Below are positions 1-7,654 of a DNA stretch of 64,000 bases, one piece after another; the first letter of the stretch is position 1, and every line of letters starts with the position of its first letter. Under the pieces are notes generated by a model that was not told where the DNA came from, searched no databases, and saw nothing but the letters and a program-made list of their open reading frames with translations. The position numbers and the translations under genes are program-made. Origin of the DNA: an uncultured Bacteroidota bacterium (lineage in GTDB: Bacteria; Bacteroidota; Bacteroidia; Flavobacteriales_D; Crocinitomicaceae). The DNA is taken from NCBI GenBank assembly GCA_937899625.1, contig CALCCB010000007.1, forward strand, positions 1 through 64,000. The letters run 5' to 3'.

Positions 1-2
1 GG

Positions 3-815
3 GAATTCAGCCCTAACGGATATTCTTATTTTTATGGTGATGTACTACCCGTTGTTGGTGGAATCTATGACATTGACGTGCGAGCCAATGAATTTTACAG
101 TGTTCCTGATTATCTGCAGGCAAGAATTGTAAAATCTCCTGATCCACATGTTCAATGGGAATGGGATGGTTCGCATGCCGGAATTATCGGTACAGATCCT
201 GATTTTACCGTATCAAGAACAGGTTTGTCTGATTGGAGCTACTTTGCAATTGCATATCCTCAAACACCATTGAATGTTAGTTTCGGTGGTGCGAATGTGA
301 AATGTGAGAATTCCAGAGTAAAGCTTGACTGGCACACCATGAGTGAAACGAACTCGAGCCATTTCTTAATTGAGATATCAATTGATGGTTTAAATTATGT
401 GGAAGCAAAAATTGTTCAGGCTGCAGGTAATGCATCCATTAGAAATGACTATCAGCTCAGCTTTGATGAAAAAGATGCATTCGAATACATACGGATTACT
501 GAGGTCGATCTGGATGGTCAAACCTACATGCTGGCAGTTTTACCTGTAAATTGTTTAAATGATGTTAATATCTATACCGCGCCAAACCCAAGCTCGAATG
601 ATTTTTCATTATACATTAGCGGTAACCACTTAATTGGGGATTTGAGCGTTCAAATCTCTGATGCTCAGGGTAAAATTGTACACCAGAGATTCATTTCACG
701 TGAAAAAGGATCCTCCGTGATTGAATTTAATGATATCGACCTAGAGTCAGGAATTTACTACGTAAGAGTGTCCGACGGGACAAGCTCTGAAATAGTAAAG
801 CATAGTTTTCGTTAA
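3..815 (+). CDS. T9SS type A cargo protein, 3' end only
   Basis: The reading frame is open from the first bases of the window, so this is the C-terminal part (about 270 residues) of a larger secreted protein whose start lies outside; the GTG at 78 is internal. The middle (roughly bases 300-540) has the pattern W-x-T-x-S-E-x-N-x-x-x-F-x-I-E-x-S-x-D-G, the fibronectin-like module that often precedes T9SS sorting domains. The last ~80 residues (from the APNPSSND motif, about base 580) are a type A sorting domain: a PNP-like turn, beta strands, then SGIYYVRVSDG and a basic end (KHSFR). Known for the family: this domain takes the protein through the outer membrane by T9SS. The catalytic or binding role of the missing N-terminal part cannot be told. 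A strong terminator follows. Confidence 0.85.
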   Translation, partial: EFSPNGYSYFYGDVLPVVGGIYDIDVRANEFYSVPDYLQARIVKSPDPHVQWEWDGSHAGIIGTDPDFTVSRTGLSDWSYFAIAYPQTPLNVSFGGANVKCENSRVKLDWHTMSETNSSHFLIEISIDGLNYVEAKIVQAAGNASIRNDYQLSFDEKDAFEYIRITEVDLDGQTYMLAVLPVNCLNDVNIYTAPNPSSNDFSLYISGNHLIGDLSVQISDAQGKIVHQRFISREKGSSVIEFNDIDLESGIYYVRVSDGTSSEIVKHSFR

Positions 816-832
816 AACTATTTGGTCTGAGG

Positions 833-864
833 AAGGCTGCCTGCAAAGGCAGCCTTTCGTTTTT
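833..864 (+). terminator. Intrinsic terminator
   Basis: Nine-base perfect stem (aaggctgcc / ggcagcctt) with a six-base loop at 833-856, followed by a T-rich run at 857-864. It ends the cargo gene just upstream. Confidence 0.85.
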
Positions 865-1103
865 ATAGCCGTTTCTCACATGTTTGTCTTTGATATCAGC
901 TCACCATAGTTAAATGATGATATTTCTGTTTTTCAGTTGCTAAGTCTTTCCTAAAACGGGAAAATAGAAATCATTTTGAGAAACTTCAATAGGAAATGAT
1001 TATCAACAATCCATTGTTAATAGCTTGAAAATAGGCGAGTTCAGCGATTTGGCACAAATTGGAATGACTCTTGGTTTGTGCGCATCACACTAAATTAGTA
1101 CTT

Positions 1104-1592
1104 ATGAAAAAAACGACTATGCTATTAGGAGTGTTCTTGCTGAGCATTCCTGTATTCTACGGTCAAGAGGTTCCTAAGTTCAGTTCCGAGGCTGAAAAAG
1201 CCGCTTGGATCCAGACCCATCCAAAGGAATATGAGCAAATCTCCGGGACAAGCGTAGAGGCCCCTCAGTTTACTACTGAGAAAGAAAAAGAGGCTTGGAT
1301 TAAAGAAAACCCAGGTGCTTACCTTAATCAAGGTGGAACTGCAGATCGCATGCCTGAGTTTAAAACACAGGAGGAGAAGGATGCTTACTTACTTAAAATC
1401 AAAGAAGCAACCGGCATAAGAGAGTTCAATTCGTCCAATGATGATTCGTTTCCACGATTTGAATCAACGGGAAATGAAGAATTGGACAACGCTCGATATC
1501 TTCAAGCGAAAGAAGAGTGGGTTAGAAACAACCCTGAAAAGTATGCAGCAATGCAGAACTTGAAGGAGGAAGCTAAGCCTGTAAACGAATAA
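1104..1592 (+). CDS. Small secreted protein with PxF/EKxAW/HPxxY repeats
   Basis: 162 residues from the ATG at 1104, chosen because it gives a clean signal peptide (MKKTTMLLGVF...VFYGQ); an upstream GTG at 1071 would add 11 unhelpful residues. The mature part is made of about four imperfect repeats of 20-35 residues: PKFSSEAEKAAWIQTHPKEY, PQFTTEKEKEAWIKENPGAY, PEFKTQEEKDAYLLKIKEA, and PRFESTGNEELDNARYLQ followed by AKEEWVRNNPEKYAAM. The constant elements are P-x-F, E-K-x-A-W and (H/N)-P-x-x-Y. I do not recognise a named family. The stop lies 20 bases before the start of the 1180-residue T9SS cargo gene, so the two are probably co-transcribed; a role as partner or periplasmic helper of that protein is only inference. 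Confidence 0.8.
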   Translation: MKKTTMLLGVFLLSIPVFYGQEVPKFSSEAEKAAWIQTHPKEYEQISGTSVEAPQFTTEKEKEAWIKENPGAYLNQGGTADRMPEFKTQEEKDAYLLKIKEATGIREFNSSNDDSFPRFESTGNEELDNARYLQAKEEWVRNNPEKYAAMQNLKEEAKPVNE

Positions 1593-1612
1593 TAACTGCA
1601 AAACTTAAGAAA

Positions 1613-4600
1613 ATGAAAGCGAAAAACTTTTTTACTTCGATAGCGATAGCAGTTATCGCATTTGTTGGTTTCCAAGGAAACGTAGCTGCTCAGTGTACGA
1701 ATTGTACAGGAGGACAATTTCCTGGTGCAACTCAAACAATTTTACCAAATCAAACTGCTAAGACGATCACTACTTGTAATTATGGTGGTGAATACTCCGT
1801 TTGTAGTGTTACTGCTGGTACAACCTACACATGGTTTACTTGTGGTGATACTGATTTTGACACTCAAATTACTGTGCGTGCTAACAATGGTACCTGTTCA
1901 GGTACTGTTTATGCCTACAATGATGACGCGTGTGGATTACAGTCACAAACTGCTCCATGGACAGCTCCATTTACAGGTACAGTTCGTGTATTGATCAACA
2001 AGTTTAACTGTACAACACAGTCTTCATGTATGACTGTAAAATGGTCTAGTTCTACACCAGTTGCTCCACCTCCATGTGCGTTCAATAACGTTCAGTTTTC
2101 TGTATCTGGGGGATCGTTTCCATCAGAAGTTTCTTGGACTTTAGTGAATTCTTCAGGAACACAGGTGGCAAACGGTGGAGCTAACTACAACGGCTCACTT
2201 TGTCTTCCTACAGGATGTTATACATTGAACATGTATGACTCTTGGGGTGATGGATGGAACGGTGCGAATTACACAATGACCTTGAATGGTTCAACAATCG
2301 CATCTGGAACTTTGTCAACTGGTTCTTCAGGTTCAGCGCAAATTGGAGTAAATTCAACTTGTGCGCCTCCAGTTAACCCGGCATGTACGAACGCAACAGC
2401 TCTGTCTTGTGGTGCAGCTTCAAGCTTTTCAGTTGCATCAGGTACAGGTTCTTGGAATGGTTATGGGCCTTTTGGAACTCCAGGTGTAGAGAAAGTGTAT
2501 ACATTTACTCCTTCTTTCACTGGTTCATATCAAGTTAACGTAACGAACAATGGTCCATCATCTTGGGTCGACTTGTTCTATGGAACAGCTTGTGGACAAT
2601 CTTCACAAACCTATTTGAGTGATGTATACCTTGGTACAGAATCATCTACCGTGAGCCTCGTAGCTGGAACAACGTACTACTTTGTTCTTGACCCTGAAAG
2701 TACTTCAGGATACTCTGGATCTATTTCTATTAGTCAGTCTTTGGCCGCTCCAGTTGTTTCAGGTGTTGCAAATATTTGTGGTGCAGGACCATTGAACTCT
2801 CAATACTCAATTGCTGCAGTGCCAGGTGCGTCTAATTACACATGGTCTATAACTACCGGTGTTGGTATGACTCTTCAACAAGGTGGTGCAGCTGGTACAT
2901 ACACAGGTACTGCTCTTACTAGAAACATCATTTTTAACGCGACATTCACTTCAGGAACCCTTACAGTGACTGCCAACGGATCTTGTGGTTCTACTACAAC
3001 AACTTACAACATTCAGCGTGTAGGTGGTGGAGATTTCCAGATTACTTCTGTTCCTTACACCAATAGTTCTTCAACTGCGGGTGCCGGTAATGATTGGGAT
3101 TTTGGAAGAACTTCCCAAGATCATATCTATTCATGGACACCAGCTTGTTCTGGATCATACACAGTATCACTTTGTGGATCATCGTATGATACATACCTAC
3201 AAGTAATTTCGGATATTTGTGGTGGTTCTCCATCAGTATTGGCATTCAACGATGATGCATGTGGTTTATCTTCTGAGTTAACATACAACTTCACTGCAGG
3301 TACTACATACTATATTTTAGTTGAAGGTTTCTCTTCTTCAAGTGCTGGAGCTTACACATTGAATGTAACTCCAAATGTAGGTGGTAATGCATCAATTGCA
3401 GGTACAACTTCTATCTGCGGTCCTGGAGCAACAACTGCAACATATACAGTAAGTGGTGCAGAGGCTGGAACAACATACTCTTGGTCATTGCCAGCTGGAA
3501 TGACAGTAAATGGAGCAACGAATGGAGCTTCAATCAACGTGAATGTTGATGCTTCTTTCAACAGTGGATCAGTAACTGCGAATTTAACGTCTGCATGTGG
3601 ATCTTCTTCTTCACTGTCAATCGCTGTTGCAAGATCTGTTGAAGATGCAGCTTATTCTAATGAATTCTCTCATTCAGGAAACACGATTGGTGCAAGTAAC
3701 TCTTCATCATTAAGAGCATCTGCTGACAACATCATCAAGTGGGATGTTACTTGTCATGGTACTTATACGCTTTCATTGTGTGGTTCAGGGTATGATACGT
3801 ACATGTATCTTACTAACGGACTTCCATGTAACGGAGGTTCTGTGATTGCATTGAACGATGACTTCTGTGGTTTACAGTCTCAATTGACAGCGGTGGTTCC
3901 AGTAGGAACATACTACATCGTTGTTGAAGGTTGGTCTTCAACAGGAGCTGGAGCTTACACATTGAATGTTACGGGAGATAACCTTTCTGCGTCTTTCTCA
4001 AATTCTGATTACAACGGATACGGAGTATCTTGTTTCGGAAGCACGGATGGTTCAATTAACATTTCGGCTGCAGGAGGATCAGGAATTGAATACTCAATCG
4101 ATGGAGGAGCTACATGGCAGTCTTCAGGTGCATACTCTGGTTTAGCTCCAGGATCATATGATGCTATGGTGCGTCAGTGTCTTGGTGACGAAGTAAGCCA
4201 GACTATCGTTCTTGTTGAGCCTACGAAGGTAAATATCTCTGCATCGAATACTGAGATCCTTTGTAACGGTGATCTTTCAACTGTATCGGTTTCAACTTGG
4301 GGTGGTGCTGCACCATACTCAACTGACGATGCTGGAACTTATTCAGTTCCTGCAGGAGACTATACATATAACGTAGTGGATGCTAATGGATGTTCTGCTT
4401 CAACTTCAGTTTCAATTTCTGAGCCTACTCCATTGACAATCAATGCAGGTGGTGATGAAACGACGTTCTACGGATACGGACCAATGCAGTGTGCTACACT
4501 TAGCGCTACAGCAGATGGTGGTACTCCAGGATACTCGTATTCTTGGAATGCTGGAGCGGGTCAGGAAGTAACTGTTTGTCCTGAGAATAGTGGTTCTTAC

Positions 4601-5155
4601 ACTGCTACTGTAACAGATGCTAACGGATGTACTGCTTCTGATGATCTATGGATCTGTGTAGTAAATGTTCAGTGTCAGCAAGGAACCAGCAACAACTACG
4701 GAGTAGAAATGTGTCAGACACCTCCAGGAAACCCTAACAACGCACATACAATCTGTATCGCACCGTCTGCAGTTCCTGCACACCTTGCAATCGGATGTGT
4801 ATTGGGTGCTTGTGGAGAACTAGAGAATGCTTGTTCAGGAGTAGTTGAAGTAGGTCAGGCTACAAATGCAGCGAAGAATGCTGGTTTGAGCACTGTACTT
4901 GCGCTTACAGCGTATCCTAACCCAGCAGCTGGAATGACTACAATTTCTGTTACTCCTGCTGATAAAGGGAATTATGAGATCAGAATGATCGATATGACTG
5001 GAAGAACAATTTCTACGGTTTACAACGGTTTCATCTCTGATTTCGAAAATCTTACGTTCGATGTTGATATGACTGAATTGTCTACTGGTGTTTACTCTGT
5101 AAACGTAGTAGGTGATAACGGAATTGTTGAAAACATTAGAATCGTTAAGCAGTAA
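1613..5155 (+). CDS. Large multidomain T9SS type A secreted protein
   Basis: 1180 residues with signal peptide (MKAKNFFTSIAIAVIAFVGF...AAQ). The body alternates beta-sandwich modules. PPC-like modules with the recurring pattern YDTYLxxxxxxC...AxNDDxCG...GTYYIxVEGxSS occur near residues 50-145, 470-590 and 685-795, with a more divergent one near 255-375. Between them lie PKD/Ig-like modules that begin with a GxxxICGxG pattern (about 385-465 and 595-680). A SprB-like repeat follows (CFGSTDGSINISAAGGSG, then GGATWQSSGAYSGLAPGSY). The C-terminus (LTAYPNPAAGMTTIS to VENIRIVKQ) is a type A sorting domain. Known for such modules: cell-surface adhesion or glycan binding. No catalytic motif was seen. 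It probably shares a transcript with the upstream repeat protein and is followed by a UUCG-loop terminator. Confidence 0.88.
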   Translation: MKAKNFFTSIAIAVIAFVGFQGNVAAQCTNCTGGQFPGATQTILPNQTAKTITTCNYGGEYSVCSVTAGTTYTWFTCGDTDFDTQITVRANNGTCSGTVYAYNDDACGLQSQTAPWTAPFTGTVRVLINKFNCTTQSSCMTVKWSSSTPVAPPPCAFNNVQFSVSGGSFPSEVSWTLVNSSGTQVANGGANYNGSLCLPTGCYTLNMYDSWGDGWNGANYTMTLNGSTIASGTLSTGSSGSAQIGVNSTCAPPVNPACTNATALSCGAASSFSVASGTGSWNGYGPFGTPGVEKVYTFTPSFTGSYQVNVTNNGPSSWVDLFYGTACGQSSQTYLSDVYLGTESSTVSLVAGTTYYFVLDPESTSGYSGSISISQSLAAPVVSGVANICGAGPLNSQYSIAAVPGASNYTWSITTGVGMTLQQGGAAGTYTGTALTRNIIFNATFTSGTLTVTANGSCGSTTTTYNIQRVGGGDFQITSVPYTNSSSTAGAGNDWDFGRTSQDHIYSWTPACSGSYTVSLCGSSYDTYLQVISDICGGSPSVLAFNDDACGLSSELTYNFTAGTTYYILVEGFSSSSAGAYTLNVTPNVGGNASIAGTTSICGPGATTATYTVSGAEAGTTYSWSLPAGMTVNGATNGASINVNVDASFNSGSVTANLTSACGSSSSLSIAVARSVEDAAYSNEFSHSGNTIGASNSSSLRASADNIIKWDVTCHGTYTLSLCGSGYDTYMYLTNGLPCNGGSVIALNDDFCGLQSQLTAVVPVGTYYIVVEGWSSTGAGAYTLNVTGDNLSASFSNSDYNGYGVSCFGSTDGSINISAAGGSGIEYSIDGGATWQSSGAYSGLAPGSYDAMVRQCLGDEVSQTIVLVEPTKVNISASNTEILCNGDLSTVSVSTWGGAAPYSTDDAGTYSVPAGDYTYNVVDANGCSASTSVSISEPTPLTINAGGDETTFYGYGPMQCATLSATADGGTPGYSYSWNAGAGQEVTVCPENSGSYTATVTDANGCTASDDLWICVVNVQCQQGTSNNYGVEMCQTPPGNPNNAHTICIAPSAVPAHLAIGCVLGACGELENACSGVVEVGQATNAAKNAGLSTVLALTAYPNPAAGMTTISVTPADKGNYEIRMIDMTGRTISTVYNGFISDFENLTFDVDMTELSTGVYSVNVVGDNGIVENIRIVKQ

Positions 5156-5173
5156 GTTTATCTAAACCAATCT

Positions 5174-5200
5174 AAAGGGGGCTTCGGCCCCCTTTTTTTT
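5174..5200 (+). terminator. Intrinsic terminator with UUCG tetraloop
   Basis: GGGGGC-TTCG-GCCCCC hairpin at 5177-5192, extended by A-T pairs, then eight T residues. UUCG is an exceptionally stable loop. It ends the two-gene unit 1104-5155. Confidence 0.93.
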
Positions 5201-5228
5201 AATATAGAGAATTAAGAATATTGATCAA

Positions 5229-5798
5229 ATGAACAAATTACATAAGACATTTCATCAAATATTAATTTGTGCATTTCCAGTTTTTTTACATGCCCAAACG
5301 ACGTATGAGTTATCTGATACCTTATCCAAAAATGATTCTGTTTTGGATATAGATACAGCACAATTAATGGTTCAGGAGTATTCGAAAAGCTGGTCAGAAA
5401 AATTGTTGGAGAGTGCATATGAACTATACAATTCGGAGAAATTATGGAAATTGAGGTACATCGAAATTGATGAATCCAGGTTAAATAAAAATTTCGATAA
5501 AAAAGAAGATCTTTTGTTTGAGTATTATGCAGTGATGTCAGCCGGTTTAATTTATATTGAATCTGATTCACTCATCTTACTTGCTTCTAAAAAGGATGAG
5601 CTTTTACCTTATATACTTGGGCCCAAACTGGTCAAAGAAAATAACGTAACAGTCCAGCATTTGGATATGAATTGTGAGTCATGCCAGAAAACATTCTTCT
5701 TTGATCGACAATTTATCAATGATGAGCTGTGTTTGTTCATTAAGGATGAAAAGATTGATCATGAAGATGTATATTACAAGTTAGTTTTTAAAGAGTGA
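5229..5798 (+). CDS. Secreted protein of unknown function
   Basis: 189 residues with a signal peptide (MNKLHKTFHQILICAFPVFLHAQ). No family recognised. The mature part is acidic and mainly hydrophilic, with a helical stretch near residues 48-90 (EYSKSWSEKLLESAYELYNS) and a short CESC motif near 156-159 that could form a disulphide. It lies 73 bases after a terminator and 7 bases before the next T9SS gene, so it is probably the first gene of a two-gene unit. Without homologues I assign no function. Confidence 0.65.
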   Translation: MNKLHKTFHQILICAFPVFLHAQTTYELSDTLSKNDSVLDIDTAQLMVQEYSKSWSEKLLESAYELYNSEKLWKLRYIEIDESRLNKNFDKKEDLLFEYYAVMSAGLIYIESDSLILLASKKDELLPYILGPKLVKENNVTVQHLDMNCESCQKTFFFDRQFINDELCLFIKDEKIDHEDVYYKLVFKE

Positions 5799-5805
5799 TT
5801 TTAAC

Positions 5806-7632
5806 ATGATTCGAATTATCCAAGTATTTGTCCTTTGCTTATTTACCACTGGTATCTATGCGCAATTAATTTCTCAGAATTCATATTCTGTTAAGGCATA
5901 CTATTCACCGGAATTAGCTACTGAATTTCCCGAAGAAAAATCTAAACCGATTGCTGAAGAAAAGGCTCCAGGTTCAATCATCTTTTCAGCTAACTTTGCG
6001 AATTCATTGGGTTCTTGGACAACTTCAGGTCCTGATGCTGCTATCTGGCAACATGATGACGATGGACCATCAGGGCCATTCTCTAACGGAGTTCTCGAGA
6101 TCATTAATTCTCAAAGTGTTAATAATGGATTTGCGATCTTTGATGCGGATCTGGCCAATAACGGCAGTATGATCAATCGAAGCGGAAATCTCATTTCACC
6201 TTTGATCAATTTAAGTAATATCAATTATGCATACATTCAATTTGCGCATAAGTACAGGTTCTGTTGTGATGATGCTTTCATTCCTAAGGTGGAAGTTTCA
6301 ACCAATGATTTTTTAACATATGCCTCATTTGATGCAAGTATTCCCGGAGTTGAGCCAAATATGATCTCGGAGACTTATTTTTCCAAGATCAATATTGCAT
6401 CTTTTCTTGATACGGCTTCGAACAAACAAAATTTCAAATTAAGGTTTAATTGGGATGGATCTAATGGTGGTTCCCATTATTACTGGCAGATCGATGATGT
6501 AAAAGTTCGAGAAGCATATTCTTACGACCTCTCACTTACCAATGCTGGCTTTTACACCGGGCAGATGGAAATTCCCTATTTTTTTATTCCGAAAAGCCAG
6601 TACTCTCCGTTGATTTTCAGAGGGACGATAACCAACGATGGGGGTATGCCTGCTGAAAATGCCTTTTTAAACGTCACACTAGACCAAGGTGGAGGGAATA
6701 TCAATTCTAATCCAATAAATATTGATCAGACACAATCACAAAATGTTCTGACCGATGCATTCAATTATGTCAATGATACATTGGTGTATTTCGTAAATTA
6801 CAATGTTCAACAAGATTCTTCTGAAGCACTTTCTGTAGACAATTCATTTTCTGAATTTTTAAATGTAACAAGAACTGTATTTAGTGCAGATAACAATGCT
6901 CCATCAGGGTTTATTTCGAATTTGAGTAATCAACCTGGTCAGCCCTTCAAGGTCGGTAATGTAATGGAAATTTTGAATAATGATGTAATTGATTCAATGT
7001 TTGTATATGTCACAGCGACATCCACCAATATTGGGGCAATTATTCATGGAGAATTATTTAAAAAAGTGAACGGTATTTGGAATCCTATTGGCAGTACCTT
7101 GCCAAGACAAATAGGTTTTGATGACAATGGAGGAAGCATAGGGCTTAAATTTCCGGCTCCTATTCTTGTTGCCCAAGGTGATACCATACTTGTCGCGGCA
7201 TGTCACAATGGAGGATCTCCTGATGTTAGGTTTAGGGTATGTCAGCGAGTAGAGAATGGCTTCGTTCAAGGATTTGATGCAAATGGGGCTAATTTTATTT
7301 TGGAAAACCCTAAAGCGCTTATGGTCCGTTTAAACATGGGAGAACTTCTATCTATCAATGAATTCGAACATGAAAACATGTTAGTTTATCCCAACCCAAC
7401 TAATGGTTTGATCTCAATTTCGGCATTAGATGATATTAGTGGAAATGTAGAATTTATTGTTCTCGATGCAAGTGGAAAAGAGGTAAATGGCCCATCTTTC
7501 ATTGTCACAGAATTACAAAACGGGAAAAAAGCCTATCGCATTGATCTTAGTAAGCTTGATGCTGGGCTATACGAAGTTCTTATCCTAAAAGAACGATCTG
7601 TAATTGAAAATGTTAAAGTGGTTAAGCAGTAA
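5806..7632 (+). CDS. T9SS type A secreted protein with MAM/jelly-roll-like N-terminal region
   Basis: 608 residues with signal peptide (MIRIIQVFVLCLFTTGIYAQ). Residues about 55-235 look like a beta-sandwich of the kind found in secreted peptidases and adhesins: IFSANFANSLGSW at the start, and HYYWQIDDVKVREAYSYDLS at the end, the usual end of such a module. The middle (240-500) is beta-rich with no catalytic motif I can name. The end (YPNPTNGLISIS ... ENVKVVKQ) is a type A sorting domain. Its last codons and terminator resemble those of the 1180-residue protein upstream (VENIRIVKQ versus IENVKVVKQ). It follows the unknown secreted gene by 7 bases. Confidence 0.82.
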   Translation: MIRIIQVFVLCLFTTGIYAQLISQNSYSVKAYYSPELATEFPEEKSKPIAEEKAPGSIIFSANFANSLGSWTTSGPDAAIWQHDDDGPSGPFSNGVLEIINSQSVNNGFAIFDADLANNGSMINRSGNLISPLINLSNINYAYIQFAHKYRFCCDDAFIPKVEVSTNDFLTYASFDASIPGVEPNMISETYFSKINIASFLDTASNKQNFKLRFNWDGSNGGSHYYWQIDDVKVREAYSYDLSLTNAGFYTGQMEIPYFFIPKSQYSPLIFRGTITNDGGMPAENAFLNVTLDQGGGNINSNPINIDQTQSQNVLTDAFNYVNDTLVYFVNYNVQQDSSEALSVDNSFSEFLNVTRTVFSADNNAPSGFISNLSNQPGQPFKVGNVMEILNNDVIDSMFVYVTATSTNIGAIIHGELFKKVNGIWNPIGSTLPRQIGFDDNGGSIGLKFPAPILVAQGDTILVAACHNGGSPDVRFRVCQRVENGFVQGFDANGANFILENPKALMVRLNMGELLSINEFEHENMLVYPNPTNGLISISALDDISGNVEFIVLDASGKEVNGPSFIVTELQNGKKAYRIDLSKLDAGLYEVLILKERSVIENVKVVKQ

Positions 7633-7654
7633 TACTTAGTCTAAACTCATAACC

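Follow-up and report, generated by a model that had tools for sequence, protein, structure and literature searches.

What is the role of a small exported repeat protein whose gene lies directly ahead of that of a giant T9SS cargo? The question was raised by positions 1104-1592 of the window, that is, the whole stretch of 64,000 nucleotides of Crocinitomicaceae DNA analysed here. The small protein is referred to as the accessory. The features on which the argument draws are listed by position:

831..858, + strand: terminator-like hairpin of 12 pairs with a T-rich tail, after the previous cargo gene (pattern scan, no mapped transcript end)
1104..1592, + strand: small exported repeat protein (accessory), 162 aa (ORF call, signal peptide by reading)
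1170..1244, + strand: repeat 1, residues 23-47 (self-alignment; helix-break-helix in the AlphaFold2 model)
1260..1334, + strand: repeat 2, residues 53-77 (self-alignment; AlphaFold2 model)
1350..1415, + strand: repeat 3, degenerate, residues 83-104 (self-alignment; one helix in the AlphaFold2 model)
1446..1556, + strand: repeat 4, the longer form, containing FPxFxxTGN, residues 115-151 (match to profile A2 at 1446-1559)
1315..3127, no strand: block differing as one piece between the window and locus L004 (blastn)
1613..5155, + strand: T9SS type A cargo, 1180 aa (PKD_6 and Por_Secre_tail matches)
1691..2053, + strand: GGEY domain, mature N-terminus of the cargo (profile A3, E 1.9e-40; fold judged on the L018 homologue)
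4913..5125, + strand: Por_Secre_tail sorting domain of the cargo (profile match)
5174..5195, + strand: terminator-like hairpin of 9 pairs, after the 1180-aa cargo gene (pattern scan)

The accessory begins with an ATG at 1104, and the tool-called ORF opens at an upstream TTG at 1071. Its signal peptide was judged by reading, with cleavage probably before Gln21. Cys is absent from the signal peptide and from the mature part, and so also from the cleavage site, where an envelope lipoprotein would carry it. The mature protein is acidic (34% charged residues, net charge -10). An earlier note on this DNA had described an exported protein made up largely of repeats, and this was borne out: four repeats with a unit of ~30 residues cover ~109 of the 142 mature residues, and the best off-diagonal ungapped self-alignment scored 109 at offset 30, against a mean of 27.6 (sd 4.4) and a maximum of 47 in 500 shuffles. 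Repeats 1 and 2 follow the pattern (V/A)PxF(S/T)(S/T)ExEKxAWIxx(H/N)PxxY, the third is degenerate, and the fourth is longer and contains FPRFESTGN. AlphaFold2 (12 rows) predicted a string of beads, in which repeats 1, 2 and 4 each consist of two helices separated by a break at (H/N)P. Mean pLDDT was 89-94 over the blocks of repeat 4, and the whole model had a pTM of 0.33, so that no fixed arrangement of the beads is predicted. Flexible helical beads of this kind, as modelled, would be expected of a binding partner. Peptides, glycans or the cargo itself had been put forward in the earlier note as what the repeats may bind.

Searches in Pfam, NCBIfam, PDB chain sequences and PHROGs gave only chance-level matches for the window accessory. 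PDB 9wau (CteX), at E 1.5, was among them. The proposal that the repeats match no described family therefore held for Pfam, NCBIfam and PDB chain sequences. T9SS sorting domains (PF18962/TIGR04183, PF13585/TIGR04131) were not detected on the accessory in Pfam and NCBIfam up to E 1, nor was PF11751 (PorP/SprF) in Pfam. Nor did the accessory resemble Skp/SurA-type or other chaperone families in either database down to the same limit of E 1, a result about family membership by which chaperone-like action is not judged. The best Foldseek match of the accessory model had E 3.4, which says little because the model is not compact.

The accessory stop ends at 1592 and the cargo ATG lies at 1613, with 20 bases between them. 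This agrees with the earlier placement of the gene 20 bases upstream of a 1180-residue surface protein, and it is this large neighbour that carries the T9SS sorting domain (Por_Secre_tail, Pfam E 8.9e-10). The further claim that it is the largest T9SS cargo stood for the window, judged by sorting-domain matches on the contig, but not for the genome, in which the longest open frames with a sorting-domain match have 2925 aa (PF18962) and 3774 aa (PF13585). That genome (G000; 2.93 Mb, 171 contigs) has 120 Por_Secre_tail (type A) and 40 CHU_C (type B) matches at E 1e-4, a very large T9SS cargo load for 2.9 Mb.

The pattern scan found terminator-like hairpins on both sides of the gene pair and none in the 20 bases between the genes; two weak 7-pair candidates lie just inside the cargo gene, at 1638-1659. 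Positions 1104-5155 thus read as a two-gene unit, on the evidence of pattern matches rather than mapped transcripts. A simpler scan, from -10 of the accessory stop to +10 of the cargo start, found a simple hairpin terminator in none of 34 accessory-cargo junctions. Further along the window, at 5229-5798, a second exported ORF of 189 aa has its stop 7 bases ahead of the next cargo, at 5806-7632 (608 aa, Por_Secre_tail match). Most of the 5229-5798 gene is without a counterpart at the same place in L004, which makes it a recent gain or loss.

Relatives of the accessory were found by several routes. When the family was searched at the protein level, 10 of 150 genomes had a match, the own genome among them. 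The scan of genome contigs returned one locus, L004, from a Crocinitomicaceae MAG, which carries the same ORFs as genome G140. Profile A2 (38 positions, from the fourth repeat) had matches at E 0.05 in 27 of the 150 family genomes, a part of which are chance hits; in 395 phylum genomes it found the own genome and, outside the family, nothing credible, and a 38-position profile can miss distant relatives. The two other genomes matched in the phylum set were rejected, one (G266) with an open frame of just 30 aa and the other (G380) with neighbours that are phage-like by reading. Phage records gave one match, at E 0.4.

In 10 of 11 fully read loci of relatives, the gene of a large exported protein follows immediately after the small gene, with spacings from an overlap to 35 bases; at the eleventh locus, L016, the cargo start is unclear. 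Homologues that never adjoin T9SS genes would have contradicted the earlier note; they do adjoin them. The 24 loci of the A2 profile hits contained more of the same gene plan and two looser kinds of accessory. One kind comprises proteins of 208-223 aa (L035, L041, L043, L045, L047, L048), the other proteins of 98-129 aa with KEAWIRSNPEE (L037, L042, L044, L054; VKEAWIRSNPEE in L054), and every one of them precedes a large exported protein. The large proteins behind the second kind have a different N-terminus, with C..M.PIC......NPTWYYF in most. The accessories of L042 and L054 belong to no known family in Pfam or NCBIfam. In all, ten cargo-adjacent proteins other than the window accessory had no family match above a curated cut-off (best NCBIfam E 0.0011). 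Five loci (L046, L049, L050, L055, L056) were discarded as chance profile hits. Some cargos may have two accessories: at L041:1048-2162 and L047:955-2025 the large protein is preceded by a pair of unlike small exported ORFs, of ~210-220 and ~140 aa, one behind the other.

The pairing was also examined in the reverse direction, starting from the cargo. N-termini of many accessory-linked cargos share a domain of ~115 residues with the pattern QC...C.YGGEY...YNDD.CGLQS..., captured in profile A3 and named the GGEY domain. Searched with profile A3 alone, 68 of the 150 family genomes (E 1e-6) and, across the phylum, 6 of 390 genomes (E 1e-8) had the domain, the own genome being included in both counts. 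The test set consisted of 39 loci with a GGEY-domain E below 1e-27, and an upstream accessory was defined as an ORF that is 60-280 aa long, begins in a signal-like way and ends -40 to +60 bases from the cargo start. Such an ORF was present directly upstream in 35 of the 39 loci (gap -11 to +41). The misses were L080, L082, L086, which has a CotH-type cargo, and L087. In the accessory-less cargos of L080, L082 and L087, the stretch ahead of the domain is unusually long (34-57 residues), as if the absence of the accessory were accompanied by an extended signal peptide. Fourteen of the 39 loci had originally been found via the small protein (the window, L058-L064, L066, L067, L070, L071, L072 and L099, sorted by hand), so the fair count is 21/25.

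T9SS cargos of the own genome served as a control under the same rule and gave 2/18, the two hits being diacylglycerol-kinase-like and acyltransferase-like ORFs as judged by eye (L132, L137), hence 0/18 on reading. The 20 control cargos were hand-picked from the upper sorting-domain lists as long open frames, not at random, and two (L130, L136) were not evaluable. A weaker sub-class of GGEY cargos gave 1/15 by rule and 0 on reading, since the ORF found, at L117, is WD40-like by eye. Fisher tests of 21/25 yielded p 2.1e-6 in the comparison with the control and 1.7e-6 in that with the weaker sub-class. Five weaker loci with E 1e-8 to 1e-11 (L089, L090, L091, L092, L097) had no accessory by rule, two not being evaluable. 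One locus in the counts 35/39 and 21/25, L104, is atypical in that its domain starts 79 residues from the cargo start, its upstream ORF has 271 aa and its cargo is an M43 peptidase; without it the fair count is 20/24 (p 3.2e-6), and it is not among the 34 loci on which the motif, BLASTP, Mantel, composition and junction analyses were done. An accessory is present as well at G140:C193 (L031), a locus outside the 39. The C-terminal end was testable in 27 of the 39 cargos, and 26 of these had a T9SS sorting domain above cut-off (20 type A, 6 type B), the one without a match being L084. Of the other 12 cargos, ten are cut short by the end of their contig, and L061 and L064 likewise extend to contig ends. 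Taken against the controls, these pairing rates tie the accessory to a single class of N-terminus among the cargos rather than to T9SS cargos in general.

The accessories themselves are diverse. With signal peptides removed, BLASTP at E 1e-3 placed 24 of 34 in one linked group and 10 outside it, in a small database that makes the threshold lenient; with signal peptides kept, 25 of 34 were linked. A loose motif, W-I-x-x-(N/H)-P-x-x-Y, occurred in 12 of the 34 against 1.9 expected from shuffles, mostly once and at most three times per protein, and several other accessories end in a similar F..LP.E.Q..IL..PE.Y, as judged by eye. Many proteins in the same position therefore are without the repeat motif, and the gene coupling is independent of the repeats. 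The tandem repeats are thus one variant within a wider, rapidly changing range of small exported proteins. Distances between accessories correlated with those between GGEY domains (Mantel r 0.359, 0 of 5000); between genera, with genus labels assigned by hand, the correlation was weak (r 0.17, 73 of 5000). In the locus pairs L069/L077, L073/L084 and L079/L100, the domains reach 76-86% of the maximal score and the accessories are almost without similarity. Accessories thus diverge much faster than the GGEY domain, which argues against strict lock-and-key recognition. Of all results, the weak correlation between genera and the unlike accessories of such similar domains weigh most against a one-to-one match of the two.

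The fold of the GGEY domain was judged on a read-through model of L018, which joins the accessory, one stop read as Gly, the cargo signal peptide and the domain. In it, the domain is a well-predicted beta-sandwich (blocks of 85-97 pLDDT), and in the accessory half the TGN motif is modelled, less confidently, as two helices. The fused model has a pTM of 0.56, no PAE and 3 rows for the accessory half, and carries no inter-domain confidence. The predicted domain resembles PPC and clostridial collagen-binding domains in fold (Foldseek E 2.6e-5 to 5sv5; VIA Z 9.6, rmsd 2.4, 98 aligned); the top VIA row was the lysozyme inhibitor PliG (4dzg, Z 10.8). Unlike PPC domains, it has conserved Cys, GGEY and YNDD motifs, and the N-terminus of the window cargo has no match to Pfam PPC (PF04151); in L017, PF04151 was found elsewhere, at residues 426-493 and below cut-off. 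Folds of this type are often used for ligand binding.

Comparison of the window with L004 by blastn revealed a sharply bounded difference. The flanks are 93.2% identical over 1-1314 and 94.4% over 3128-5199, and inside 1315-3127 the sole aligning part is 2714-2889, at 73%. This block runs from the end of accessory repeat 2 through the distal accessory half and the junction up to cargo residue 505, which means that the accessory's distal half has changed jointly with the N-terminal cargo part. Such co-exchange, as read from the alignments, supports a joint function of accessory and cargo, with the proviso that neighbours also move together by chance. Genome G125 (L019) has another accessory-cargo pair between the same two conserved flanks, and the second pair of the own genome (L014) is 93% identical to the G140 pair (L031) over the 3.1 kb compared. 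Comparing window positions 1-7640 with L004 and L019, gene content between the GPDH-like and small membrane-protein genes varies among the three related genomes, and this segment looks like a hot spot for cargo gene exchange.

Dedicated partners of T9SS cargos have been described. In PMC12618676 and PMC9143113, PorP/SprF-like shuttles (PF11751) are dedicated partners of type B cargos: outer-membrane proteins, usually encoded downstream, that act on the C-terminal sorting domain. The accessory is like them in that its gene adjoins that of a cargo and in that it would take the same export route as they do to the envelope; it differs from this account of the shuttles in being upstream, small, predicted to be helical and found with both type A and type B cargos. 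Both kinds of partner coexist at L022, where an accessory comes first, then a type B cargo of 2487 aa and then a PorP/SprF gene (PF11751). L020, L021 and L022 all have a small repeat gene followed by a giant cargo, with the PorP/SprF gene third in L022, where the contig reaches far enough; this gives a three-gene layout of accessory, adhesin and shuttle.

SkpA is presented, in PMC10994853, as a chaperone-type general part of the F. johnsoniae T9SS translocon. With SkpA and Skp/SurA-type chaperones the accessory would share its proposed place, the periplasm, and its proposed action, helping a T9SS cargo before export; unlike SkpA as presented there, accessories are many, each is tied to one cargo gene, and the window accessory has no chaperone-family match. 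By sequence, the accessory belongs to neither the PorP/SprF nor the SkpA family. The flagellar proteins FlgN, FliS and FliT are cognate export chaperones according to PMC8527033. They too are small, helical and dedicated to one exported protein, a working likeness only and not kinship; they are cytoplasmic and act before type III export, whereas the accessory would itself be exported by Sec. With its gene tied to one cargo class above control (21/25 versus 2/18), the accessory may be a cargo-dedicated export partner in the sense of a working kind, not of a sequence family. No description of an upstream cargo-dedicated T9SS partner was found in the open-licence literature searched.

What has to be explained at the level of sequence is a compact gene pair, a signal peptide on both products, no recognisable sorting domain on the accessory and its recurrent pairing with GGEY cargos. 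The best explanation, to which we assign a probability of about 0.42, is that the small protein is a cargo-dedicated periplasmic partner, an escort or mask, of the N-terminal end of the cargo; binding is inferred. The accessory would be translated first, cross the inner membrane by Sec and meet the cargo in the periplasm. Its helix-Pro-helix beads would then bind the N-terminal cargo part (the GGEY domain and the domains after it), and in the manner of an escort or chaperone it would keep this end soluble or masked until exit via the T9SS translocon. It is by the C-terminal side that type A cargos are attached to the cell surface, as stated in PMC9143113 and PMC12618676, so that the GGEY domain would become the outer end of the anchored cargo.

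The nearest rival places the accessory on the surface: as a co-exported subunit it would bind the cargo in the periplasm and stay on the adhesin, for example as a tip component that adds binding beads. The same gene coupling is compatible with this, beads of repeated motifs suit multivalent binding, and fast divergence suits a surface-exposed part; having no sorting-domain match, however, the window accessory would have to travel with its cargo, and we regard this rival as rather unlikely. Less probable still is a co-regulated but independent periplasmic or envelope protein that acts elsewhere, on the cell wall or the T9SS machine, with no cargo contact. It would accommodate accessories that have no one-to-one match to the cargo domain, as well as the different accessory classes that precede cargos with other N-termini, but it sits badly with a link that is confined to a single cargo class and that the control cargos, other T9SS cargos from the own genome, hardly show.

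The genes overlap or lie close together (median gap 10.5, -11 to +41) and the sequence changes rapidly, which could also mean that the main role of the upstream ORF is to adjust how the giant cargo is translated or exported, by translational coupling, its sequence mattering little. We consider this improbable by a wide measure, because 24 of 34 accessories still form one BLASTP-linked group without their signal peptides and because the window protein preserves its repeat motif to a degree well beyond chance. Tandem repeats of ~30 residues in an exported protein would suit a precursor of repeated secreted peptides as well, yet the loose motif is mostly single in the 12 of 34 accessories that have it, and the constant neighbour is a giant cargo; this explanation is hardly credible.

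Returning to the cargo-dedicated partner, the usual position of the small protein ahead of a giant cargo suggests a dedicated, so far undescribed helper. The small gene precedes most GGEY-type cargos across a whole bacterial family, and the accessory group has no Pfam or NCBIfam model. The Crocinitomicaceae may thus possess a third, undescribed kind of T9SS partner, a proposal that we make tentatively and think likelier to be wrong than right: a large, fast-evolving set of Sec-exported escorts, each encoded upstream of its own giant adhesin-like cargo, which would act on the N-terminal end as PorV/SprF act on the C-terminal one.
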